Shown here piece after piece: positions 2,015 through 17,860 of a DNA stretch of 33,243 nucleotides. The notes beneath the pieces are model-generated. The model had not been told where the DNA came from. It ran no database searches and was given only the letters and a program-made list of their open reading frames with translations. This stretch comes from a virus: the IMG/VR virus record IMGVR_UViG_3300034013_000129, positions 1 through 33,243 of that record; one strand, given 5' to 3'. Position 1 is the first letter of the stretch, and every line of letters begins with the position of its first letter. The translations under genes were made by a program, and so were the position numbers.

Positions 2015-2460
2015 GGGTAATACCTCGCAGCGTTGCTTCCGTGTTCTCTTACTTCGACGCAGACAAGACGAACATCATTCGCCACCGGCTGTTCGATGCG
2101 GAGCCAATTGTCGACCATGTATGCGATGAACTCTGCGAATGCTTCACAGCCGACATTCGGGATGACTTGCAAGTCGATGACGCCTGCTTCATTGAGGCGC
2201 TCGAAGTCTTTGAGGAATGGATCATCTGCTGCGACCACAGTCTTGTGATCGAAGAGTCGAGCGATGTCTTCCTTGACTCGCTTGAATGAACCGAAGTCGA
2301 TGACCCAATTCCGGGAGTCGAGCGTGGATGCCTCGAATGTCAACTCGACGCTGATGGCGTACCCATGAATGAAGCGACAATGAGACTCTGCCCGCCATTG
2401 ACGAAAGGCTGTCGACCATCCCTGTTCAGGAGTGAATGTCTTGACGACTTGATACTTCAT
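2011..2460 (-). CDS. queD: 6-carboxytetrahydropterin synthase QueD (HGY variant)
   Basis: A 149-residue member of the 6-pyruvoyl-tetrahydropterin synthase/QueD family that converts dihydroneopterin triphosphate to 6-carboxytetrahydropterin. Visible residues are H27, the catalytic-type C28, H32, the Asp-His pair D71/H72 and E139 in VREHG. The usual HGH zinc motif is HGY here (H32-G33-Y34), so one canonical zinc His is replaced by Tyr. I recall this SHCRxxHGY form from a distinct QueD-like branch, so it is probably functional. The ATG at 2460 overlaps the QueC stop by four bases (ATGA); a longer upstream extension would lie wholly inside queC and is unlikely. Confidence 0.88.
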   Translation of the reverse strand: MKYQVVKTFTPEQGWSTAFRQWRAESHCRFIHGYAISVELTFEASTLDSRNWVIDFGSFKRVKEDIARLFDHKTVVAADDPFLKDFERLNEAGVIDLQVIPNVGCEAFAEFIAYMVDNWLRIEQPVANDVRLVCVEVREHGSNAARYYP

Positions 2461-3155
2461 CGAGGATCGACATACTCCGGGAGTGCTTGATACAGAGTTG
2501 GATCGGGAACGCCAGCATCTCGCATTGCTTCTCGACGCTCGAAGCAGGTTCCGCATGAGCCGCAATGAATGTCGCCTCCCTTGTAGCACGACCATGTGTT
2601 CGAGAAGTCGACGCCGAGTCGATGACCTTCACTAGCGATGAATGTCTTGTCGGCATAGAGGAACGGAGCGATGACGCGGAAGGATGGATCGATGAATCCT
2701 TCGTTGGCGATGGTGAGCGCAAGATCAGTCGCCTTGATGAATGCTGGTCGACAGTCGGGATAGATGTAGTGATCTCCACCATGAACCGCTGTGGCAATGA
2801 ATCGCGCTCCAATAGCGACCGCGTATCCAGCAGCGATGTTCAACATGATGGCATTGCGATTCGGAACGACTGTCTGCTTCATTGTCTGTTCGGCATAGTG
2901 ACCGTCGGGGACTTCGATCTCGCTGTTGGTCAGACTTGATGAGGAGATCAAGCCGGTCAGATGCGAGAGGTCGACGATGACATGATTCGCTCCAAGATCA
3001 TTCGACGCCATCTTCGCGTATTCGAGTTCCTTCTTGTGGCGCTGCCCATAATCAAACGACATGAGCGTCAACTGGTGTCCCTCGCTTGCGAGGAGATGAG
3101 CCATCACCACCGAATCCATGCCACCGCTAACGATGGCGACTGTCTTGTTTGTCAT
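2457..3155 (-). CDS. queC: 7-cyano-7-deazaguanine (preQ0) synthase QueC
   Basis: A 232-residue PP-loop ATPase that activates CDG and adds ammonia in two steps, through the amide ADG, to give preQ0. The PP-loop SGGMDS is at 10-15 and the FDYGQRH segment at 34-40. The structural zinc site is complete: C190, C198, C201 and C204 in the stretch ending CGSCGTC. Size is normal for QueC. The start overlaps the DpdA stop by four bases, so synthesis of the base and its insertion into DNA are probably translationally coupled. No fused glutaminase is present; a separate class II amidotransferase lies at 6268-7071. Confidence 0.95.
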   Translation of the reverse strand: MTNKTVAIVSGGMDSVVMAHLLASEGHQLTLMSFDYGQRHKKELEYAKMASNDLGANHVIVDLSHLTGLISSSSLTNSEIEVPDGHYAEQTMKQTVVPNRNAIMLNIAAGYAVAIGARFIATAVHGGDHYIYPDCRPAFIKATDLALTIANEGFIDPSFRVIAPFLYADKTFIASEGHRLGVDFSNTWSCYKGGDIHCGSCGTCFERREAMRDAGVPDPTLYQALPEYVDPR

Positions 3156-4255
3156 CTCTGAGCCTTTCCGTTGTTCTCTGTGACTTCTTGATGGATCGAA
3201 TGTGACTCGGTCATAATGTCTGTTGTCGATGCTTGCGCTAGATACAGATGAAGTCCTTCTGTTCCTTGAACCATCTCTGTTGTCGACGATGTCGCCTTGT
3301 AGAGATGAGTCCCGGCTGAGCGTGAAGGATGACCACGACCGACTGACATGTCGCCAGTCAATGCTTCGACCATCTCGACTTCATTGTTGTTCGATCCATT
3401 ACCTGCTGCGAGATAGACATGTATTCCTTCGCTTTCAAGAGCGAGGTCATCAGGTCGAGTATTCGCGTGATAGAGATGCAGCCCGTCTTCACGCTCCGGG
3501 ATTCTGATGCCACCATGTCGCTGTCGAAGAAACTTCTCGAAGCGATGCCAAGTGATAGCCGCCACTTTCACCGCGTAGGAGCGGTGGTATTTGGATCTGT
3601 CAGCAAAGATGAGCGGGTCGACTCCATGATCTCGAATGAGTGGAGCCAGTTTCATTACTGACTTCCGATCTCCGACAATGCATTGCTTCCATTGGCGACC
3701 ATCCCACAAGTCGATGCGCCCATACATGAAGCCCGATGCCCATGATGACGAGTCGACTGAATACCAAGGGATCGACATGATGTTCTCCATCGATGTCTGA
3801 CCGAAGCCATGAAAGACGCTCCCGTAATCCTCTGCGCGTTTGTGACAAGTCGCTGCCCAGCGGAGCGTTGCCTTGCGTTCTGCTTTCACCATGCCACCGA
3901 GAGCGATGTATGGATAGCGCTTCATTAGCCGGTCGAGATGCTTGAAGTCTGTTCCTGTATGGAAGACAGGAATCGGTTGGAGCCCCATGCGCTCCAAGAT
4001 GGCTTGATTCTGACTTGTCGCCTTTGGATCTCTGATGACATCGAGATTCACATACACGGTGATGAGGTGTTCCCATCGTTTGATCCATGCTGCGTAATCC
4101 TTGATGTCGATCTCTGCGCCTTGCGTGAACGCTGAATAGGCTCCGCTATCAGCGAAGATCATCGGCTTGATCGGCATTCGAGCAATGAGTTTGTCGAGAT
4201 CAGTCTTCTTGAAGTAGTGATACGACAGAAGAAACTTCGGCGGCTGTTCAAGCAT
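3152..4255 (-). CDS. dpdA: DNA deazaguanine transglycosylase DpdA with a C-terminal repeat
   Basis: A 367-residue TIM-barrel enzyme of the tRNA-guanine transglycosylase superfamily, phage DpdA type, predicted to exchange guanine in DNA for a 7-deazaguanine. Residues 1-255 hold the core: FADSGAY at 34-40 with D36 in the position of a catalytic Asp, ALGG at 118-121, and VDSSSW at 167-172 with D168 as the second acidic residue. The Cys-rich zinc site of true tRNA enzymes is not seen. Residues 258-367 form an unusual tail with a 19-residue periodicity (separate entry). The gene is sandwiched between a ParB-like gene (8-base overlap) and queC (4-base overlap). Family call is strong; the identity of the final base in DNA is not determined by this gene alone. 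Confidence 0.88.
   Translation of the reverse strand: MLEQPPKFLLSYHYFKKTDLDKLIARMPIKPMIFADSGAYSAFTQGAEIDIKDYAAWIKRWEHLITVYVNLDVIRDPKATSQNQAILERMGLQPIPVFHTGTDFKHLDRLMKRYPYIALGGMVKAERKATLRWAATCHKRAEDYGSVFHGFGQTSMENIMSIPWYSVDSSSWASGFMYGRIDLWDGRQWKQCIVGDRKSVMKLAPLIRDHGVDPLIFADRSKYHRSYAVKVAAITWHRFEKFLRQRHGGIRIPEREDGLHLYHANTRPDDLALESEGIHVYLAAGNGSNNNEVEMVEALTGDMSVGRGHPSRSAGTHLYKATSSTTEMVQGTEGLHLYLAQASTTDIMTESHSIHQEVTENNGKAQR
3155..3484 (-). repeat. 19-residue (57-nt) periodic repeat at the DpdA C-terminus
   Basis: The motif G-[LIT]-H-[LV]-Y recurs at DpdA residues 258 (GLHLY), 277 (GIHVY), 315 (GTHLY) and 334 (GLHLY), with a decayed copy SIHQ at 353. The spacing is exactly 19, 38, 19 and 19 residues, so the unit at 296 is degenerate or an insertion of one period. 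Similarity is at the protein level; the DNA copies have diverged, arguing for selection on the repeat. Function is unknown; it could be a DNA- or partner-binding repeat. Confidence 0.8.
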
Positions 4256-4865
4256 GAGAGTCGTAAGCCTCTATCAGCGCTGTTGCTTTCTCATCGTCTG
4301 TCGATCCGGGAAGACGAGCCCACAATTCCTGCCATTGAGTGAACACCGACAATGCGAGTCGCATTCGCACCACGCCTGTGAAGTCGTCGTGGTCATCATC
4401 GCTGTGTTCCCCACCAAGAGATCCGATGAGGTCATCAAGATTCGGTGGTTCGAGTAATCCGACCAAGTCGTCGAGGTCAGCAGGGTCATACATAGTCCCG
4501 GCTAATTGCTCAGGCGTGGTCATCAACTCCTTCAATAGATCCACGAGGGCTGAGTCGTCATACGAGGCGAGGTCATTCGCTCGATTATCAGTCAGCAGAA
4601 TACGGAGCGCCTGTTCTTCATCACAGTCGACAAAGGTTGCTGCGATGTCTTTCCAACCAAGCGACTTCGCTGCTGCGTATGTGTGGTTGCCAGCGAGGAT
4701 GTTGCCTGTCGCTTTGTGAACGACGATCGGTCGGTATTGACCATGAGCGCTGAGACTTTGTGCAATTGCGCCGATGTCTCCTTGTCGCACATTCCTCGGA
4801 TGAGGATGAACATCCTTGATGGGTGTCCTGAGTGGTGATAGTTCTTCACGAATGTTCGAGGTCAT
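4248..4865 (-). CDS. ParB-like N-terminal nuclease-domain protein
   Basis: A 205-residue protein. Residues 10-100 match the ParB/Srx fold: GQYRPIVV at 42-49, ILAGNHTYAAAK at 56-67 and a DNRAND segment at 93-98. The C-terminal half (130-205) is acidic, with a His/Asp-rich stretch near 151-160, and shows no recognisable domain. Phages often place ParB-fold proteins next to DNA-modification enzymes; here it precedes dpdA with an 8-base overlap. It may guide or license modification, or act as a nuclease or CTPase; these are guesses. The ATG at 4865 has an AGGAG box seven bases upstream. Confidence 0.8.
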   Translation of the reverse strand: MTSNIREELSPLRTPIKDVHPHPRNVRQGDIGAIAQSLSAHGQYRPIVVHKATGNILAGNHTYAAAKSLGWKDIAATFVDCDEEQALRILLTDNRANDLASYDDSALVDLLKELMTTPEQLAGTMYDPADLDDLVGLLEPPNLDDLIGSLGGEHSDDDHDDFTGVVRMRLALSVFTQWQELWARLPGSTDDEKATALIEAYDSHA

Positions 4866-5103: not shown

Positions 5104-5158
5104 CAGGATCGACACTAACACATCTGCTGGTCATCATCATTCATTCTTGAACAGCACA

Positions 5159-5184
5159 AGAGCCGCCCCTCGCGGAGCGGCTCT
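5159..5184 (-). terminator. Strong hairpin with GCGA tetraloop (likely terminator)
   Basis: Read on the minus strand, an 11-bp stem (one G-U pair) closes on the tetraloop GCGA, followed by UGUGCUGUU, which is only moderately U-rich. It lies 22 bases after the stop at 5206 and before the gene at 4846-5103, so it probably ends the amidoligase cassette transcript. It is one of the most stable hairpins I noticed in the window. Confidence 0.75.
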
Positions 5185-5205
5185 CATGTTGGGGGACTTG
5201 TGATG

Positions 5206-5526
5206 CTATCTGATTCGACAGGCGCTCATCAGCACAGCGATGCTTGCGCCGATCATCGCAGCGCTCCACCAATAGCCGGGAGTCGAGAAGTCGGAAGATG
5301 CCGACCACGCGAGACCGAAGTAGAACAGGAAGCCTGCCACCATCACCTTCACAAATGACCAGCGCTCACGATTCACAACCTTGATGTTCAAGATCCGAAC
5401 GCGGAGCGGCGCTCGATTCATCGACCAGCGACAACCATCCATGTGAAGATCACTCGCCGAATTGATTCGGCATCGATGCGTTCCAAGATCACATTCACAC
5501 CAACGGGTCAGAGTTGCGACCTTCAT
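5206..5526 (-). CDS. Small membrane protein, Cys-rich N-terminus
   Basis: A 106-residue protein that I do not recognise. The N-terminal half has Cys residues at 10, 12, 19 and 32 and many basic residues, giving a possible metal site. The C-terminal half contains two hydrophobic helices, around residues 58-76 and 84-101, joined by a short turn with WW. It is the last gene of the amidoligase cassette, starts as TGATG on the stop of the previous gene, and is followed by a strong hairpin. A membrane anchor for the cassette is one reading; nothing in the sequence proves it. Confidence 0.7.
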   Translation of the reverse strand: MKVATLTRWCECDLGTHRCRINSASDLHMDGCRWSMNRAPLRVRILNIKVVNRERWSFVKVMVAGFLFYFGLAWSASSDFSTPGYWWSAAMIGASIAVLMSACRIR

Positions 5527-5849
5527 CAGAACGGCTCCTGTTCTGTGCCATCGCCACGAGTGCGAATGTAGCGGTCGATCTCGACGAGCGCCTCAGGGAA
5601 GTCCTTGCGAATCTTCTTCATCATGCTGACTGATAGACGCAGATACGGCGAGAGAACAATTCCCGCGAATGCGTCGTTGTAAGCAGACTCATCGGTGCGC
5701 CGTTGGATCTCCTTGAAATACTTCGAGCGAGCCACTTGACGCGTTGCGAGATTCAACGCTTGCGCGATGGCATCAAATGTCATCCCGTCTCGATCTCTCA
5801 TGCTGACAATCTGCATACGCAGAGCCAACTCTTCTACTGACAAAGGCAT
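5526..5849 (-). CDS. Helix-turn-helix-like small protein
   Basis: A 107-residue protein with a probable helix-turn-helix at residues 20-50 (GMTFDAIAQALNLATRQVAR). The LATRQ motif is shared with the N-terminal region of the amidoligase at 7090-8370, suggesting related DNA- or partner-binding segments within the same cassette. The rest is helical and charged, with a Met-rich stretch. A strong AAAGGAGG box favours the second of two adjacent ATG codons (5849 over 5852). It overlaps the upstream gene by one base as TGATG. Possible roles are a cassette regulator or a terminase-small-subunit-like DNA binder; unproven. Confidence 0.7.
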   Translation of the reverse strand: MPLSVEELALRMQIVSMRDRDGMTFDAIAQALNLATRQVARSKYFKEIQRRTDESAYNDAFAGIVLSPYLRLSVSMMKKIRKDFPEALVEIDRYIRTRGDGTEQEPF

Positions 5850-6268
5850 CATGCCTCCTTTCCGCGAGGCAGAGCCCGCTTCAACTCGATGACCGGAGCC
5901 ACCTTCTTCGTAGCCGGGAGATCGGCTGCGACCTTCTTCTTCTTCTTCTGCTGCTTCTTCGACAGCGGAGCGGCATCACCGAACTCATACGAGAGGGCTT
6001 TGTCGATCTCGCGGATGATGGGCAACAAACGATTCGCAATGGATGGGAAGCCGAGATCCTTCAAGTCATCGGCAACTTCTTCGAGACCGAATGCACAGTC
6101 GGCTAATGAGCGGAGCGATGTCGACTCATCTTCCTCATCAGCGATCTCCGCAAGGGTCAACGAATCGAATGAACAGCGAGCGCACATGCCCCAAGTATCC
6201 AATGGGCGAACTGCTTCACAAGACAAGCAAGCATCCCAATTCGCGTCGAACTCATTCATGTACGACAT
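5849..6268 (-). CDS. Zinc-finger/Lys-rich protein of unknown function
   Basis: A 139-residue protein. The N-terminus carries two CxxC pairs (CLSC and CARC) 15 residues apart, a typical treble-clef or ribbon zinc site. The middle is acidic (ADEEDES), then helical. The C-terminus has a Lys run after KKQQ and an Ala/Pro/Lys tail, likely disordered and nucleic-acid- or surface-binding. The ATG at 6268 is preferred over a GTG at 6271 because GGGAGG lies seven bases upstream. It overlaps the glutamine amidotransferase stop by one base, so both are probably made together. Confidence 0.7.
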   Translation of the reverse strand: MSYMNEFDANWDACLSCEAVRPLDTWGMCARCSFDSLTLAEIADEEDESTSLRSLADCAFGLEEVADDLKDLGFPSIANRLLPIIREIDKALSYEFGDAAPLSKKQQKKKKKVAADLPATKKVAPVIELKRALPRGKEA

Positions 6269-7071
6269 CACTTTCCTCCCTTCTCGAATAGAGATGCTGC
6301 TTGATAACTCGATGTCGCTGTCGAATGGGAATACGACGATGAATACGAGCGGGGCATCGGCACATCCATGAACTCGGAGATCCGACCATTCTCGATGACG
6401 GCATACTCACCTTCCTTGAACGAATAGCAGAACTCGAAGGAGACATTCAGACGCTTCGCTGTCTCATCGAGAATCGCCTGCGTCGATGCACAGATGACAG
6501 AGCCGCCTTTCATCTGCCCTAGAACAAGCGGAGACGATGTCAGACGAGCCGCATGAAGCCGCTGACGACGATCGCTTGTATCGAGCCACAAGAGAGCGGC
6601 ATTGCCTCGAATCTCTGCCATTCGCTTGAAGATCGACAACTCTGTATCGCCATGAGCCAACCACGCGAATGCTGCTTCGCTATCGACTTGACCTTGACGC
6701 GAGTAGAACTCCTTGCCGATCTTCTTGAACAACTCATCATCATTCGAGACATGCCCGTTATGAACGCCGACGATGCCGCTGACATCGATGGGGTGATTGT
6801 TCAGATTGTTCGACGGATCTCCTTTCGTAGCCCAGCGAGTATGAACGATGCCCGTCGAGCCGATCTGTCCCGGCTGAATCTGCTTCGCCAATTCTGAGCC
6901 GCTGATGTTTCCCTTCAAGATGAATGTCTCGACATCCTCTGATACGGGCTGATGCCACGCGACGCCTGATGCGTCACGACCTCTGACTTCGAGAAGACGA
7001 AGAAGGATGCGAGCGCATCGCCCCGCATCGAACTCGTCTCCCTGAACATGAAATGCTCCGATTCCACACAT
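6268..7071 (-). CDS. Class II glutamine amidotransferase domain protein
   Basis: A 267-residue N-terminal-nucleophile glutaminase. The protein starts MCGIGAF, so removal of Met exposes the catalytic C2. Other hallmarks are RGRDASG near 30-36, HTRWATKGD at 77-85, NNHP at 91-94 and GVHNGH at 102-107 (oxyanion-hole Asn/Gly), with D130 in the glutamine pocket. There is no fused synthase domain, so it should release ammonia for a partner enzyme. The partner could be the amidoligase directly upstream (18-base gap) or QueC. In Crenarchaeota such a domain is fused to QueC (Gat-QueC) for archaeosine. The Ser-rich C-terminus looks unstructured. A good AAGGAAAGG ribosome-binding site precedes the ATG. 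Confidence 0.88.
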   Translation of the reverse strand: MCGIGAFHVQGDEFDAGRCARILLRLLEVRGRDASGVAWHQPVSEDVETFILKGNISGSELAKQIQPGQIGSTGIVHTRWATKGDPSNNLNNHPIDVSGIVGVHNGHVSNDDELFKKIGKEFYSRQGQVDSEAAFAWLAHGDTELSIFKRMAEIRGNAALLWLDTSDRRQRLHAARLTSSPLVLGQMKGGSVICASTQAILDETAKRLNVSFEFCYSFKEGEYAVIENGRISEFMDVPMPRSYSSSYSHSTATSSYQAASLFEKGGK

Positions 7072-7089
7072 GACTATTGATTCCTTTCC

Positions 7090-8370
7090 TTAGGCTCCGC
7101 GGCTTGCTTCGCCACGGTTGTTGCGGTTCTTGATCCACTCGACGCGAGCGTTGAGATGAGCGGCTACATCCGGAGTGATGAGCATTCGATTCAGGAGCGC
7201 CATGATGAGGCGACGCATCGCTGCTTCACATTCTTCATCCGTCACACCACGACGAAGCACGAATGCCCGGGAGTCGAAGTCTGCGCGGAGGCGAGCGATG
7301 GCATCATCGCTTGGCGTCTGAGGGAGATTCTGTGTGTAGAGGTCGTAGTGCTCTTCCCATGTGCGACCGCAATAGGTCGGCTCAGGATTGTCGACGACTG
7401 TTCCATTGTGATGGCAGAACTCATCACCGAAGATGTTGTTGACTTCTGCTTCCGTGCTTTGCGAGAGGAACAGCATCACGGCTTGATTCAGGATGACCCA
7501 CGCTCCGTGATTCTTGCCATTCAGAGATCCGTTGTGAAGACGATTCTCGAATGTTCCCTGTCGACCCCATGCTTGGAGATTCAATTCGTAGTAGCGATCG
7601 CCACCGCCACTCTTGTCGCCTGATGCCCATTCGGCAGCGAGACGCTCAGAGCGAGCCTGATCTGTTCGCTTGCACCAGCGATTATTACGACGCGAAGGAA
7701 GCACAAGCATCTCCATCGCGCGGTTGATCTTCCACCAACGACGGATGATGGCGGCTTGACCGACTTCATCGATCCATCCATTCACGCCAATGTGAATGTG
7801 ACCGCCACAAGACTGATTCACTCGCGCATCGCTATCGCGGAGCGCCATCATCGCTGTTCGCAATTCGCGGAGACCATCATCACCACGCAAGACAGGCGAG
7901 ACGACTTCGCAAGCATTGTTGCCGGTGATGGAAGCATCGCTTGTGATCTTCCAGTAGTCACGGGTGTAGTGGTTGTAGCCCTCTTGCTCTGCTTCGAGCG
8001 ATACCTGTCGAAGCGCTTGCGTCGCTCTGCGATAGCCAGCGTTGTAGCACTCGACCTCAGCGCCGAATGTTGTCCATGTGTAGCCGGGAGCGAAGATGAA
8101 TGTGTCTGACAGATCATTCGAGTCGACGAGGTATGTCTGACCGCCGAAGCGAACACCTATCTGTCGAGTCTGAATCTCTCCTTCACGACCAGCGCGACGA
8201 AGAGCGGAGATCCAAAGTGTTCTCGCTTGCTGACGAGTGGCGAGCCCGTAACTGTCAGCGCAATGCTGGAGCGTGTGACCTGCGTCTCGCATGCCAAGGA
8301 TGATGTCTGCGAGTTCATCTCGGTACATCCTCCCTTGACTTGTGTTGATGAATGTTGCTGATGATGGCAT
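7090..8370 (-). CDS. Amidoligase (glutamine-synthetase-like COOH-NH2 ligase)
   Basis: A 426-residue protein of the phage amidoligase family (GS/GCS-like fold), which forms amide bonds between carboxylates and amines using ATP. Key pieces: FGAEVE at 102-107, SDASITG at 144-150 with CEVVSP at 154-159, CGGHIHIG at 188-195, YELNLQAW at 261-268 and FENRLHNGS at 274-282. The repeated Glu and His residues match the metal/ATP-binding pattern of the superfamily. An extra N-terminal region (15-65) resembles a helix-turn-helix and contains LATRQ, shared with the protein at 5526-5849. The neighbouring class II glutamine amidotransferase suggests ammonia as nitrogen donor. The substrate is unknown; published genomic analyses link such pairs to peptide or cell-wall modification. 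Confidence 0.85.
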   Translation of the reverse strand: MPSSATFINTSQGRMYRDELADIILGMRDAGHTLQHCADSYGLATRQQARTLWISALRRAGREGEIQTRQIGVRFGGQTYLVDSNDLSDTFIFAPGYTWTTFGAEVECYNAGYRRATQALRQVSLEAEQEGYNHYTRDYWKITSDASITGNNACEVVSPVLRGDDGLRELRTAMMALRDSDARVNQSCGGHIHIGVNGWIDEVGQAAIIRRWWKINRAMEMLVLPSRRNNRWCKRTDQARSERLAAEWASGDKSGGGDRYYELNLQAWGRQGTFENRLHNGSLNGKNHGAWVILNQAVMLFLSQSTEAEVNNIFGDEFCHHNGTVVDNPEPTYCGRTWEEHYDLYTQNLPQTPSDDAIARLRADFDSRAFVLRRGVTDEECEAAMRRLIMALLNRMLITPDVAAHLNARVEWIKNRNNRGEASRGA

Positions 8371-8536
8371 CTCTGCCCCTTTCGGTTTCGCAGGCTCCCC
8401 GCCTGCTCACCGACCATCTTATCAACTTTGCTAATACGGCCATGTGACCCTTATGGGGCAAGGCTTTGCGGGGGGCGCTCCTCTCGAAACCTGAGAAACC
8501 GCAACCAAACCGGAGCGGGAGCGGAGCGGCGCTCCT
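8371..8536 (-). promoter_or_regulatory. Leader region upstream of the amidoligase cassette
   Basis: A 166-base gene-free stretch between the cassette and the regulator genes. It contains a 6-bp hairpin (GCAGGC-GGGGA-GCCTGC on the minus strand) at 8390-8406, a direct repeat of GGCGCTCCTCT at 8474-8484 and 8528-8538, and the odd-centred palindrome GGAGCGGCGCTCC at 8523-8535. A GAAAGGGG box precedes the ATG of the amidoligase. A promoter is expected here, but I found no convincing -35/-10 pair. Confidence 0.45.
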
Positions 8537-13547: not shown

Positions 13548-14221
13548 TTGATGTACGCATTCCCTTCTGTATCGAACATGAGCGCTGCTGTTCCATCCTT
13601 GATGCGAATCAAGTCGTCGATGGCTTTCTTCGCCTGCTGCCATGAGAGCGAATCGACATCACGCGCTCCAACAAGAGCGCAGACAATGTCTGCATCTGCG
13701 CCTGTCTGAGACATCAACGCTTTCAGGAAGTTCACTTGCTTCTCGCTCGGCTTACCGCTCCCGCTGTTTGCTTTCGCAGCAGATCCGACTTCGACCTTTC
13801 GCTCCTTCGGTGCTGGCTTCTCAGGAGCGGGCGCATTGTTGACGACTTGCACCGGCTGAGATTCTTGATCGGCTCGACGATTCATCACTTCATTCGCAGA
13901 AGCGATTCGCTTCGAGTCGGCTGCTAGCGCTGCGAGAATCGCTCGACCCCACGCAGATGTTTCCGCATTCATCAATTCAGAGTCGCGAGTGAAGTTCGTC
14001 TTCCCGAATGCTGGCTCCCATGCGACAGCGATACCGGGTCGAGGGTCATCAGGAGTTCGGTAAGCGGCTGCTGTGTAGACAATGAATAGCCGGTCGCCTA
14101 CTTGCACAATCTCGTATGGCTTGTCGGGATTCCAAGGTTGAAGCGATCCCTCAGGATGCGTCGCCTTGAATACGCGGATGCGTTCTGCCACATCCACATA
14201 GTCGCTCATGTCGTAACTCAT
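13544..14221 (-). CDS. ERF-like single-strand annealing protein
   Basis: A 225-residue protein predicted to anneal single strands and pair with the exonuclease two genes upstream. Residues 5-115 carry the family-like core: DYVDVAERI, an F-x-V-Y-T-A-A-A-Y strand and the motif ELMNAETSAWGRAILAAL, a hallmark of ERF-type annealing proteins. The middle (120-160) is Pro/Ala/Lys-rich and probably flexible. The C-terminus (KPSEKQVNFLKALM onward) is a small helical domain as in phage recombination proteins. ATG 14221 overlaps the upstream stop. Family placement is moderately confident; it was not checked by profile search. Confidence 0.72.
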   Translation of the reverse strand: MSYDMSDYVDVAERIRVFKATHPEGSLQPWNPDKPYEIVQVGDRLFIVYTAAAYRTPDDPRPGIAVAWEPAFGKTNFTRDSELMNAETSAWGRAILAALAADSKRIASANEVMNRRADQESQPVQVVNNAPAPEKPAPKERKVEVGSAAKANSGSGKPSEKQVNFLKALMSQTGADADIVCALVGARDVDSLSWQQAKKAIDDLIRIKDGTAALMFDTEGNAYIK

Positions 14222-14592
14222 TGCTGTTCTCCTTGTTCGTTGAGTTCTTGGATCTCTTTGTTGTGTTGCTCTGTGAGACGAAGTCGATCGGGGCAGGTAA
14301 GCAACGCTCCTCCCATGACTTCTTTGTAGCGCTCGCCATTGCGATCGGTTCGCCAACGGAAGCACCACTCTCCGCTTTCCGCTTTGCATGTTGGGCAAGC
14401 GAAGTGAGCGACGCCGACGACTCCCATCAATTGTTCGAGATGATGCTGAGCCTGATGTTCGCTTGAATACTCACCGAGAATGTCGTCTGTCATGTTGTCG
14501 ATGACGAGGTAGGTGACTGATGATGGCTCTGCGATGCCACCTCTGCCATCTCCTACGCCGAGCGAGAACATTGTTGATACTGAGTAGCGCAT
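14218..14592 (-). CDS. Zinc-motif protein in the recombination operon
   Basis: A 124-residue protein. After a predicted beta-rich N-terminal half (VTYLVIDNMTDDILGEY) comes a zinc motif CPTCKAESGEWC, then RWRTDRNGERY and CPDRLR, resembling the CPxCxAxxGxxC pattern of small actinophage DNA-associated proteins. The C-terminus is Gln/Glu-rich and helical. It lies between the exonuclease and the annealing protein with TGATG and ATGA overlaps, so it is probably part of the recombination machinery or an accessory to it. Confidence 0.68.
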   Translation of the reverse strand: MRYSVSTMFSLGVGDGRGGIAEPSSVTYLVIDNMTDDILGEYSSEHQAQHHLEQLMGVVGVAHFACPTCKAESGEWCFRWRTDRNGERYKEVMGGALLTCPDRLRLTEQHNKEIQELNEQGEQQ

Positions 14593-15497
14593 CAGATCAT
14601 CCCTCTCATCACGCGGAATGATGAAGTCGATGTCGCCTGAGCGAGAATCGATTCGTCGACAAGGCGCTTCAACTTTGCTGAATCGATCCGACTCTGTGTC
14701 TGTCGCTTGAATGAGACGACCCGCTCGCCATTGATGATGCCGTATTCAGCCTCACGCATCATGTTTGCGATGGCATCCTTGATCTGCTTCTCACGAGATT
14801 CGACTTCCTTCGCCTGATCTTTGAGAGCGTTCCATTCGATGAGCAACGCGAGAACGGATGAATCGAGTTCGATCTCACCGGCTGGCTCAGGGAAGAGCGC
14901 TGCTACTTGGGGCAGAGTAAAGTCGTCGAGTCGATGTTCGCCTGAATCGACTTGCGCTGCGAACATCTCTGCTTGCTGAGTAATCGTTGCGATGAGTTCA
15001 TCATCTCTGCCCACATCGACGAGAGACAAACGCATGTTTCGATCAAGAATGCTGAATGTGACACACTCCATCTCAGCAGCAAACATCTGAGCCTGTGCTT
15101 GAAGGATGAACTCGATCGGGAGAGGAGATCCATCTGTCCACGAGTTTGTCGTCTTTGCTTCAATTCCCCAGCGATCGTTGACTTGTCCATCAAGCGTTGC
15201 GATGATGCGCTCATTCTGAAACATCACTTCCGGAACGATGATGTCTTGTTCTAATTCCTCACGAGCGAACTCAATGAGAGCGGGCTCCAATAAAGTGCCT
15301 CGACGCATCGCTGCTGTCGGCGTTCCGACTTCGACTGGCAACATCTTCTCGATGAATAGATCGTTGCGCGTCTTGTATGGGGACATTCCCATCAACGCTG
15401 GGACTTCGCTTGCTCCAATTACGCAACGAGAATCGATGCGATGACGGAGTTCAAGCCATTGCTGTGTGCCGTGTTGCGGCTTGGCGTGTTTCTTCAT
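14592..15497 (-). CDS. YqaJ/lambda-exonuclease-type recombination nuclease
   Basis: A 301-residue nuclease of the YqaJ family (PD-(D/E)xK fold), which digests duplex DNA ends to leave single strands for annealing. Motifs: WLELRHRIDSRCVIGASEVP at 14-33, MRRGTLLEPALIEFA at 64-78 with E71, ATLDGQVND at 100-108 with D103, and GIEAKTT at 111-117 with E113 and K115. QAQAQMFAAE follows. The C-terminal third is a coiled helical region. I use ATG 15497 because a strong -10/-35 pair places transcription start at that ATG (leaderless). An in-frame GTG at 15527 is an alternative. Together with the ERF-like protein it forms a Red-like module. Confidence 0.86.
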   Translation of the reverse strand: MKKHAKPQHGTQQWLELRHRIDSRCVIGASEVPALMGMSPYKTRNDLFIEKMLPVEVGTPTAAMRRGTLLEPALIEFAREELEQDIIVPEVMFQNERIIATLDGQVNDRWGIEAKTTNSWTDGSPLPIEFILQAQAQMFAAEMECVTFSILDRNMRLSLVDVGRDDELIATITQQAEMFAAQVDSGEHRLDDFTLPQVAALFPEPAGEIELDSSVLALLIEWNALKDQAKEVESREKQIKDAIANMMREAEYGIINGERVVSFKRQTQSRIDSAKLKRLVDESILAQATSTSSFRVMRGMI

Positions 15498-15504
15498 GCG
15501 TTCG

Positions 15505-15534
15505 ATTATGACGCATGGGTGTGTCACCTATCAA
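15505..15534 (-). promoter_or_regulatory. Sigma-70-type promoter for a leaderless transcript
   Basis: TTGATA (-35, 15534-15529) is followed after 18 bases by CATAAT (-10, 15510-15505). Seven bases later comes the ATG of the exonuclease gene at 15497, so the predicted +1 is the A of the ATG. No Shine-Dalgarno site is present there, consistent with leaderless translation, which is common in Actinobacteria. The sequence match is visible; activity is inferred. Confidence 0.6.
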
Positions 15535-15561
15535 GGAATCTGATGAGAAGGTCTCAGATGG

Positions 15562-16077
15562 TTACTGTCCCGGCTTAGGAAGCGACCGCCATGCTTTCTC
15601 AAACTTGTCAGCATCATCAGCCATCTCAGGAGAAAGTTCAAGGTGTAACCACCTGCCTCCTCTGCTTCCCGCATTGTTCTTGTCGTTGTAGATCGTGACG
15701 CCACGCAAACCTTCACCACGCGAACATCTGAAACCACGACCCCAACCGGGAGCGTTGTCTTTGACATTGTGGTCATAGGCGTAGTCGTGGATCTCCTCAA
15801 TGCCGAGAACAGCAGCGTGTTGCAAGAACCAGTCCCATGCTTCGACGGCATCCTTTCGGTTCTTGTATCCCAAGTCGCAAGCACGACCAGTCGCGTGAAC
15901 GCTCAACCACTTCGGATCGCCTTTGACCGCTTTCGGATTATTCATCGAACGATTCGAGAAGATGCCGAGATTCGTGAATCCCCATCGACGCTGACAGAAG
16001 TGAACCAGTTTCTCTGTCCCGGGTCGCGCTCCGACCTTCGAGACGCCATCAGAGTTACCCGTGTATTTACGCGTCAT
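15562..16077 (-). CDS. Endolysin, M15-type peptidase
   Basis: A 171-residue protein with the zinc-peptidase pattern of family M15 (VanY/D-Ala-D-Ala or L-Ala-D-Glu carboxypeptidase-like): VHATGRACDLG with H61 and D68, and WLHLELS with H145 and E147. It is likely to cut peptidoglycan peptide bonds during lysis. There is no signal sequence, so it would need a holin. No separate cell-wall-binding domain is seen. The gene follows the r1t-like holin with an 11-base overlap. M15 assignment is good; exact bond specificity is open. Confidence 0.84.
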   Translation of the reverse strand: MTRKYTGNSDGVSKVGARPGTEKLVHFCQRRWGFTNLGIFSNRSMNNPKAVKGDPKWLSVHATGRACDLGYKNRKDAVEAWDWFLQHAAVLGIEEIHDYAYDHNVKDNAPGWGRGFRCSRGEGLRGVTIYNDKNNAGSRGGRWLHLELSPEMADDADKFEKAWRSLPKPGQ

Positions 16078-16354
16078 GGCTTGGTTGTGCTTTCTTTGCT
16101 GCGCGCTTTGCGCGTGTTGCTGACTTGATACCGAACGCTTGGTCGATCTCCTCGGTTGTGAGATTCCCATCGAGAGAAGCGCTAGCAAGTTTCTGCAATA
16201 CCTGAACACAAGCAGCGCAACCAGCCAGCAAGCACGACTCAGCGACCGTCACATCAGGAGCGAATACCGCTGCGCCAGTAATGACACCGGCTGCTGAGGT
16301 CACAAACAATGCGACCATCCGACCTAGAACATCCTTGATGATCGAAAGACTCAT
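16067..16354 (-). CDS. Holin (r1t-like)
   Basis: A 95-residue membrane protein with hydrophobic segments around residues 13-31 and 38-55, then the segment LQKLASASLDGNLTTEEID, reminiscent of r1t-type actinophage holins (the LQKLAS motif). A basic Ala/Lys tail follows (ATRAKRAAKKAQ). The adjacent M15 endolysin supports the holin role. Other small membrane proteins nearby (16390-16545, 17657-17860) could be accessory holins or antiholins. Confidence 0.75.
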   Translation of the reverse strand: MSLSIIKDVLGRMVALFVTSAAGVITGAAVFAPDVTVAESCLLAGCAACVQVLQKLASASLDGNLTTEEIDQAFGIKSATRAKRAAKKAQPSHDA

Positions 16355-16389
16355 GTCGACACCATAGCGCTTGGTGTTTGATTACCCGG

Positions 16390-16545
16390 TCAGTCTTCGT
16401 CGCGGAGAATGAATGCGAGAATCACTTGCAAACCAACAGCGATGCCTGAGATCAGGAGCGCCTGTGACTGAACCACGCCCGACATTGAGATCAATGCGAT
16501 AGCGGTTCCAGCCCAAGTCCAAATGTTGTCGTTGATAAACCTCAT
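16390..16545 (-). CDS. Small two-span membrane protein (holin-like)
   Basis: A 51-residue protein: RFINDNIWTWAGTAIALISM and LLISGIAVGLQVILAFIL give two hydrophobic helices separated by a short GVVQSQ loop, ending in a charged RDED tail. The ATG overlaps the stop of the PA14 protein (ATGA). Its location directly before the r1t-like holin suggests a second holin or antiholin. It matches no family I can name. Confidence 0.72.
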   Translation of the reverse strand: MRFINDNIWTWAGTAIALISMSGVVQSQALLISGIAVGLQVILAFILRDED

Positions 16546-17687
16546 CCGAATACCTTTCGTGGAGATGGCATGACGACCAGCAACGCGGTCGTGATGATGA
16601 TGATGCGTCTTGTGCTGACAGGGACTCTCGAACCAAGCGGAACATACGAATCGGTTGCGCCACCGAAGATGTTGATCTCTTCCTCGAATGCTTCTCTCAC
16701 CTCAGCCGGTGCGTTCTGAACCGCTGCGACGATGGCAGCACCTTCCTCGATGGTCAGGCTTGATTCATCAATGCTGGCAAAGATCTCGACCGCTTCTTCT
16801 TGCGTGATGCTTTCAAGCACTTCGGGATTAGTGGCGAGCGCTGTTGCTTCATCATTGTTGAGATCCGTGAGCGCTGGTTCTGCCGCTGGTGGCGGCTGAG
16901 TAGTTGTGGTCGGCATGGTCGTCGTAGTTGTCCCGGGCTGAATCGTTGTGATGGTCGTGGTGGTCGTTGTGAGCGGGATCGTTTCGATCGGCGGGAGCGT
17001 CGTCGTGGTTGTAGTGGTCGATGTCGTCTCGACCGGGGGAAGCATCGTGGTCATCGTGGTCGAAGTGGTAGTCGTCGCGATGGTCTCAGTTGTTGTTGTC
17101 GGCATCGTGGTTGTAGTTGTTGATGTGGTGGTTGTCGTGGTCGTCGGCTCATCCATGCTGAATGCCTCAGCCGGGACTATCGACCACTCATTGTTGATGA
17201 GCCACCAAAGTTGCACCCATGCCCCGCCACCGTTCTCGTAGAACCACAAGCGGAGTCGCTTTGCTTCACCCGTGAATGCCACCGGTTGACTAATAGAGCC
17301 GCCACCGCCTTTGTCGATCCAGTCATTCGTAATCTCCTCATTGTCGAGAAGCAGAATTGTTCCATCATCTGCTTGCGCCATGAATGAGACCGGACATTCG
17401 CAAGGCGCAGAGATCCATCCATCGAAGCGGGCAGCAAAGTCTTCGTACAAATTGAACAGAGGCGCTCTATCGAATGAGTAGTCGATCTTGTCGACATTGA
17501 CTTGACCAACGATTCGTTCGTCTGCGGGGAGCGGTGGTGATGCGTTGAAGTCTGCGTTGTCGAAGACAGTCATCGTCAGCCCGATGTTGCTTGCTGATGC
17601 AGCACTCGACATCAGAACCATTCCGAGCGGAATGAGAACAATGAGTCGTTGTGAAGTCAGTCGCGTGAGCCAGCGTCGAGGTGCCAC
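16542..17687 (-). CDS. Secreted PA14-like/Thr-stalk membrane-anchored protein
   Basis: A 381-residue protein with a surface-protein layout. Residues 1-32 are a signal peptide. Residues 36-176 look like a PA14-type beta domain (DDGTILLLDNEEITNDW at 107-123, then RLRLWFYENGGGAWVQLWW). Residues 181-264 are a Thr-rich, Pro/Ile/Met-interrupted mucin-like stalk. Residues 273-340 are an Ala/Glu-rich helical domain. Residues 361-373 are a hydrophobic anchor followed by a basic tail. PA14 domains often bind carbohydrate. Such an architecture is typical of bacterial cell-surface proteins rather than virion parts. It could display on the infected cell, for example to block superinfection or alter adhesion. 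Domain calls are by pattern; function is unknown. Confidence 0.72.
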   Translation of the reverse strand: MAPRRWLTRLTSQRLIVLIPLGMVLMSSAASASNIGLTMTVFDNADFNASPPLPADERIVGQVNVDKIDYSFDRAPLFNLYEDFAARFDGWISAPCECPVSFMAQADDGTILLLDNEEITNDWIDKGGGGSISQPVAFTGEAKRLRLWFYENGGGAWVQLWWLINNEWSIVPAEAFSMDEPTTTTTTTSTTTTTMPTTTTETIATTTTSTTMTTMLPPVETTSTTTTTTTLPPIETIPLTTTTTTITTIQPGTTTTTMPTTTTQPPPAAEPALTDLNNDEATALATNPEVLESITQEEAVEIFASIDESSLTIEEGAAIVAAVQNAPAEVREAFEEEINIFGGATDSYVPLGSRVPVSTRRIIIITTALLVVMPSPRKVFG

Positions 17688-17860
17688 TCAATGTGTCCCG
17701 ATACTCGGCTGTCGACCTGATCTATCTTCTCGATCACCCGGTCGAGTTTGACCGAGTTGCTGGCGTGATCTTTATTGTTCTGTCTGCGTGTCAATTCGAG
17801 GAGCGTCACTAGCAAGGTGACTGATGCACCAATGAGAGCAACGATGATCTCGGTATCCAT
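17657..17860 (-). CDS. Small membrane/coiled-coil protein
   Basis: A 67-residue protein: an N-terminal hydrophobic helix (IIVALIGASVTLLVTLLEL) followed by a charged helical segment RQNNKDHASNSVKLDRVIEK and HIEWHLD at the end. This resembles small holin or spanin-like accessory proteins next to lysis genes of actinophages, but no specific family is claimed. Its start overlaps the stop of the fibre gene (TAATG), and it overlaps the PA14 gene by 31 bases. Confidence 0.65.
   Translation of the reverse strand: MDTEIIVALIGASVTLLVTLLELTRRQNNKDHASNSVKLDRVIEKIDQVDSRVSGHIEWHLDAGSRD

Follow-up and report, generated by a model that had tools for sequence, protein, structure and literature searches.

A putative glutamine-dependent amide ligase of phages, inherited independently of the 7-deazaguanine DNA-modification genes that adjoin it

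IMG/VR record IMGVR_UViG_3300034013_000129, present whole in the 33,243 bases analysed here (the window), is a tailed phage genome whose minus strand carries the main genes, including all those described below. One of them encodes an amidoligase (AL, 7090..8370) and the next a class II glutaminase (GAT, 6268..7071); three small genes and a module for 7-deazaguanine DNA modification follow. We report that AL-GAT is a divergent new representative of a phage module already known, and comparison with relatives shows it to be inherited and exchanged independently of the neighbouring ParB-DpdA-QueC-QueD-QueE-FolE genes. With a probability of roughly 0.55, we favour the reading that AL and GAT together are a glutamine-dependent, ATP-consuming amide ligase whose substrate is a peptide-type carboxylate from the host rather than a 7-deazaguanine.

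Profile, motifs and fold all placed AL in Amidoligase_2. The protein matched the Pfam family (PF12224) with E=1e-29 and 104.6 bits, against a curated cut-off of 22, and phrog_2443 with 9.8e-29; the ligase motifs G103-x-E105-x-E107, G189-x-H191-x-H193 and T273-x-E275-x-R277 were invariant across 40 sequences. An AlphaFold2 model (pLDDT 83.3) showed the glutamine-synthetase (GS)/GCS2 fold in the catalytic domain, and its top PDB fold matches were GS-superfamily carboxylate-amine ligases only (YbdK, GS, GMAS and PafA/Dop). Since these matches had modest E-values, low overall TM-scores and 10-13% identity, they support the fold class of AL, but a substrate cannot be transferred from them. The fold assignment rests on structure comparison, a sequence search of the PDB with the AL profile having been uninformative, with chance matches only. 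At its N terminus the model has a three-helix, helix-turn-helix (HTH)-like domain at about residues 11-59 (helices 11-29, 34-40 and 46-59). A comparable stretch lies ahead of the catalytic domain in most amidoligases from AL-GAT actinophages, and single AL relatives matched Pfam HTH families weakly.

GAT is a stand-alone class II (Ntn) glutamine amidotransferase and the putative ammonia donor. It matched GATase_6 (1.3e-16, 61.3 bits, curated cut-off 27) and phrog_14519 (2.5e-37), and it has the N-terminal catalytic Cys and the Arg, Asn-Gly and Asp motifs of its class: an MCGI start with C2, HTR (77-79), HNG (104-106) and VDSE (129-132), mostly invariant among nine aligned GATs. Its closest solved relatives are the glutaminase domains of GlmS. 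A preliminary description of this DNA had named the two genes amidoligase and class II glutaminase and proposed that they form an amide. Both families lie well above their curated cut-offs with catalytic motifs intact, confirming the names, and together with the strict pairing described below they make the proposal likely right.

Relatives were collected by alignment-driven scans of viral contigs, which returned 80 AL loci and 80 GAT loci; scans with a single AL or GAT protein as query returned zero loci, the search patterns having fallen in poorly conserved stretches. AL and GAT were adjacent and co-oriented with AL first, mostly 0-119 nt apart, in 68 of the 69 fetched loci containing both, a set that includes repeats of one contig or near-copies. 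Profile HMMs detected AL in 95/102 GAT-bearing loci; GAT without AL was seldom seen, and AL without GAT does occur. The window pair thus shows the direct pairing with a glutaminase gene that marks the phage AL-GAT module of the Iyer/Aravind type. Natural AL-GAT fusions were sought and none was found. Such strict pairing with an ammonia donor, taken with the GS fold, argues that the two proteins are a glutamine-dependent amide ligase. In cellular genomes GAT relatives were found at 44 loci. Only L202, a short contig whose genes are arranged in phage-like fashion, had AL as well, and so no bacterial gene context is informative on substrate.

The genes around the pair differ between lineages. One order is metallopeptidase-like - AL - GAT - WhiB - ParB - methyltransferase-like, another is GGCT - AL - GAT - ParB, and that of the window clade is g8779 - g8537 - AL - GAT - two small genes - membrane protein - ParB - DpdA - QueC - QueD - QueE - FolE. 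WhiB adjoins many AL-GAT pairs and therefore suggests actinobacterial hosts for those relatives; it is absent from the window. The metallopeptidase-like protein (HEFRHA), which has weak Pfam matches only, lies directly upstream of AL in L140 (2183-2683) and 21 more loci. Directly after ParB, L097 (3457-4038) and 19 more AL-GAT loci carry a conserved protein with no Pfam, PHROG or NCBIfam match; it was modelled as an S-adenosylmethionine (SAM)-methyltransferase fold with an IDLDAFG motif, which makes it a candidate new base-modifying enzyme.

Because the 7-deazaguanine carboxylate CDG is the QueE product, the preliminary description had raised its conversion to ADG or a related amide as one role for the pair, with co-occurrence as the check. 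This link did not hold up. In 50 AL-GAT or GAT records searched whole (most 22-121 kb, some possibly fragments), QueD was present in 3 and DpdA in 4, so that AL-GAT seldom travels with DpdA and the preQ0 genes. The converse fails too. Arthrobacter phage Sonali carries ParB-DpdA-QueC-QueD-QueE-FolE in the window's order without AL-GAT. Scans for DpdA gave no usable locus with a single protein as query and 25 loci with an alignment; in seven loci (L178, L187, L189, L190, L193, L194 and L197) the stretch of ~10 kb before DpdA on its upstream side contained no AL-GAT. Phages of the window's own lineage also exchange what follows ParB. L012, of the window lineage, keeps AL-GAT-...-ParB and has in the DpdA/Que slot (14335-17726) a Tet_JBP oxygenase, a nucleotidyltransferase, an APH-like kinase and a TAGT glycosyltransferase, a natural module swap. 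L118, of that lineage too, is 44% identical to the window in AL, 59% in GAT and 67% in ParB, but only 29% in DpdA; beside that DpdA, its QueC (14169-14702) is cut down to the C-terminal part, model positions 87-208.

The window's own QueC (2457..3155) is canonical and intact, with a PP-loop SGGMDS and a Cys4 zinc motif, and matches PF06508 at 2.8e-60 and TIGR00364 with 186.1 bits against a cut-off of 150.3. QueC itself carries CDG through ADG to preQ0, with ammonia (PMC13329287), and Rosebush makes dPreQ0 with the minimal gene set (PMC6884629). The phage Gat-QueC proteins (9g/JenK1, NP1, R7M) resemble the window in that a class II glutaminase occurs with 7-deazaguanine genes, but their glutaminase is fused to QueC and is phylogenetically apart from GAT: the three Gat-QueC rows formed their own group excluding GAT with 100/100 support, in a tree whose long branches leave deep placement unsure. 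GAT also had no match to phrog_10428, which the window QueC does match. Taken together, the rare co-occurrence, its failing converse, the swaps, the separation of GAT from Gat-QueC and the published findings on QueC and Rosebush indicate that AL-GAT is most likely not part of the neighbouring 7-deazaguanine pathway, and that shared ancestry best accounts for its association with Que genes in the window clade.

These same results make it very unlikely that AL and GAT turn CDG into ADG, or act on a later 7-deazaguanine, and so set the chemistry of the modified base. The locus most favourable to that idea is L115 (6370-10405), an AL-GAT phage with DpdA-like, QueD, QueE and FolE genes and no QueC in its 25.7-kb record; here alone could AL-GAT stand in for the amidation step of QueC, and the DNA of this phage possibly carries CDG or ADG. 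The HTH fused to AL would also suit action on DNA, and CmoY offers a precedent, since it amidates a carboxylated base of DNA at the expense of ATP (PMC12783734). L115 does not amount to a pattern, however, because the record of Mycobacterium phage Typha, searched from end to end, has no QueC either, and no AL-GAT was seen in the part of its DpdA region that was read.

Pairs of the same two families are known from several phages. Pseudomonas phages LUZ24, tf and UFV-P2 have, like the window, an Amidoligase_2 gene by or near a class II glutaminase gene in the early region, in the same order (PMC3890496). The order in LUZ24 is COOH.NH2 ligase-AL-GAT-RimK-GGCT; no counterpart of its additional COOH.NH2 ligase, RimK-like ATP-grasp protein and GGCT was found in the window, and its GAT is longer. 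The closest annotated pair is that of Arthrobacter phages Laroye and Salgado (AL gp98, GAT gp99) and Ottawa, with the same order, an HTH-like region at the N terminus of AL and about 30-36% identity to the window pair. GGCT is present in the Arthrobacter phages and, unlike the window, Laroye and Ottawa have no QueD or DpdA. The two families recur in phages of other hosts, the OM43 phage and Poriferisphaera phage ZRK32, for which functions have been proposed (PMC10580990, PMC10945688).

In the reading we favour, GAT would hydrolyse glutamine and pass the ammonia on to AL, probably within a physical complex, and AL would use ATP to activate a carboxylate, which the ammonia, or else a small amine, would then turn into an amide; the unit is self-contained. 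Because the pair is inherited independently of the DpdA/Que module, most probably its substrate is neither CDG nor any other 7-deazaguanine. Tentatively, the acceptor may be a carboxylate of peptide type in the infected cell (a wall peptide, a gamma-glutamyl metabolite or a protein), and modifying it would alter the surface or a protein of the host to the phage's benefit. Gamma-glutamyl chemistry is hinted at mainly by the company of GGCT (gamma-glutamyl cyclotransferase), which breaks gamma-glutamyl amides. It was found in 16/50 AL-GAT or GAT records, and it accompanies AL without GAT in Bacillus phage 035JT001 and phage C75C1. GGCT partners, together with the RimK-like ATP-grasp and the second COOH-NH2 ligase of LUZ24, fit the peptide or wall proposal. 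Two published papers propose wall modification or superinfection exclusion for phage amidoligases (PMC10580990, PMC11318856, citing Iyer 2009), and the lean of the preliminary description towards peptide or wall, drawn from comparative genomics, was apt in that light.

Several observations weigh against a peptide-type host substrate. GGCT, the variable member of the module, is absent from the window and from its clade; ParB and WhiB, as neighbours, give no indication of a role at the wall; and the N-terminal HTH on AL, with an interchangeable DNA-modification module adjoining, would also fit a substrate linked to DNA. An unlikely proposal along such lines is that an HTH-guided GS-fold ligase and its glutaminase amidate a carboxylated phage-DNA base or a DNA-bound protein, atop the interchangeable modules that follow ParB. 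In its version restricted to bases, AL-GAT would amidate a carboxylate other than a 7-deazaguanine, produced by modules that vary from phage to phage. The HTH-AL fusion suits this version, the slot after ParB is often occupied by DpdA, by Tet_JBP/TAGT or by the SAM-methyltransferase-fold protein (20 loci), and ParB-type genes and AMP-forming amide ligases lie near CmoX in phages (PMC12783734). It is nevertheless unlikely, since the phages concerned share no source for such a base carboxylate, and the AL-GAT phages LUZ24 and Laroye show no such module nearby. CmoY itself is like AL in being an ATP-dependent amide ligase of phages, and a class II glutaminase domain occurs in one CmoY cluster (PMC12783734), but this ligase, which joins glycine to the 5-carboxymethylcytosine of phage DNA (5cxmC), is an AMP-forming asparagine-synthetase homolog; AL lacks asparagine-synthetase homology and has Amidoligase_2 and the GS fold instead.

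Auxiliary nitrogen metabolism, in which AL-GAT boosts the ammonia or glutamine economy of the host, was claimed for ZRK32, a phage with AL, GAT, glutathione synthase and GGCT (PMC10945688). We consider it improbable: uncoupled class II glutaminases release ammonia and do not assimilate it, the strict coupling to AL points to a specific product, and the ZRK32 effect was measured with phage added, not by single-gene tests. There is least to be said for GAT as a split Gat-QueC partner that feeds QueC for archaeosine, with AL incidental. Phage Gat-QueC fusions do exist (PMC6884629), and the window genome has a class II glutaminase and QueC together, but GAT pairs with AL in phages having no QueC or QueD; we rejected the idea on the exclusion of GAT from the Gat-QueC group and its lack of a phrog_10428 match.

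The adjoining module is complete in its own right. Its first gene encodes a ParB-like protein (4248..4865; PF02195 4.4e-7, phrog_723 3e-38) and is followed by that of the DNA guanine transglycosylase DpdA (3152..4255; phrog_887 7.4e-52), 37% identical to a DpdA-like protein of Typha; ParB and DpdA are likewise adjacent in Sonali and Typha. After QueC come QueD (2011-2595; PTPS 4.3e-16), QueE (1322-2014; Radical_SAM 4.8e-7 and QueE models) and FolE (447-1322; GTP_cyclohydroI 1.4e-68), the last with an N-terminal phosphoribosyltransferase-like segment. The window thus encodes the whole preQ0 pathway and DpdA. By analogy with Rosebush, the modified base of the window phage is predicted to be dPreQ0. 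Elsewhere, L188 (9827-12225) has a tandem DpdA pair with a DUF6884/YaaA-like gene in between, and a small gene akin to it comes after DpdA in L011, L174 and L177.

The preliminary description had treated AL, GAT and the three small genes as one cassette. All five open reading frames were found on the minus strand at exactly 5206-8370. They look like one operon, because each start is preceded by a purine-rich, ribosome-site-like stretch, the AL-GAT gap is 18 nt and the remaining junctions overlap by 1-4 nt. The cassette is not a conserved unit, only AL and GAT being conserved together. The first small gene (5849..6271) encodes a zinc-ribbon-like protein with two CxxC pairs and a Lys-rich stretch; it had no family match over cut-off among Pfam, PHROG and NCBIfam profiles and no homolog among the fetched loci, and sisters have a different Lys-rich HTH protein in its place. 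The next (5526..5852) encodes a small HTH protein with weak matches to HTH_23 (0.0017) and phrog_645 (4.7e-5); the motif ATRQxAR that it carries is similar to the N-terminal HTH of AL, where residues 19-59 also match phrog_645 weakly. The third (5206..5526), with a Shine-Dalgarno-like AGGAG before its ATG at 5526, encodes a protein with two hydrophobic segments, judged by eye to be membrane helices. Alignment gave weak homologs, likewise before ParB, in L011 (12512-12718), L118 (12110-12337) and L012 (12736-12942), and other sisters also have a weak counterpart. This membrane protein is the sole gene of the GAT-ParB interval common, if weakly, to the window and its sisters, in which the Lys-rich HTH protein and a ~190-aa protein replace the window's two small genes.

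The two hairpins said to bound the cassette are both real, but neither serves as described. That at 8390..8406 forms part of a more extended stem (z=-3.83) and, being located in the AL leader immediately before the gene, marks no boundary; the other, placed at 5159-5184, belongs to a G+C-rich hairpin (5155..5188, z=-3.85, -29.1 kcal/mol with its short flanks) that follows the five genes, lacks a T-run and was not flagged in terminator prediction. The decamer GCCGCTCCGC occurs without mismatch at four minus-strand sites within or close to the cassette (5172-5181, 5401-5410, 5965-5974 and 8521-8530) and, allowing at most one mismatch, has nine copies against 2.9 expected; it is absent from sister L174. 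No Rfam RNA or tRNA was found, and the cassette had no match at DNA level in the phage collection. An anti-phage defence system was considered and rejected, none of the five proteins having a match in PADLOC.

AL-GAT pairs are common in phages and easily mis-assigned to whichever pathway adjoins them; in the window lineage, AL-GAT and 7-deazaguanine DNA modification are separable, and the window clade forms natural gene-swap pairs with L012 and with L118. The HTH fused to AL provides a lead on the site of enzyme action, and Laroye and LUZ24 are cultured phages in which the function of AL-GAT could be settled.

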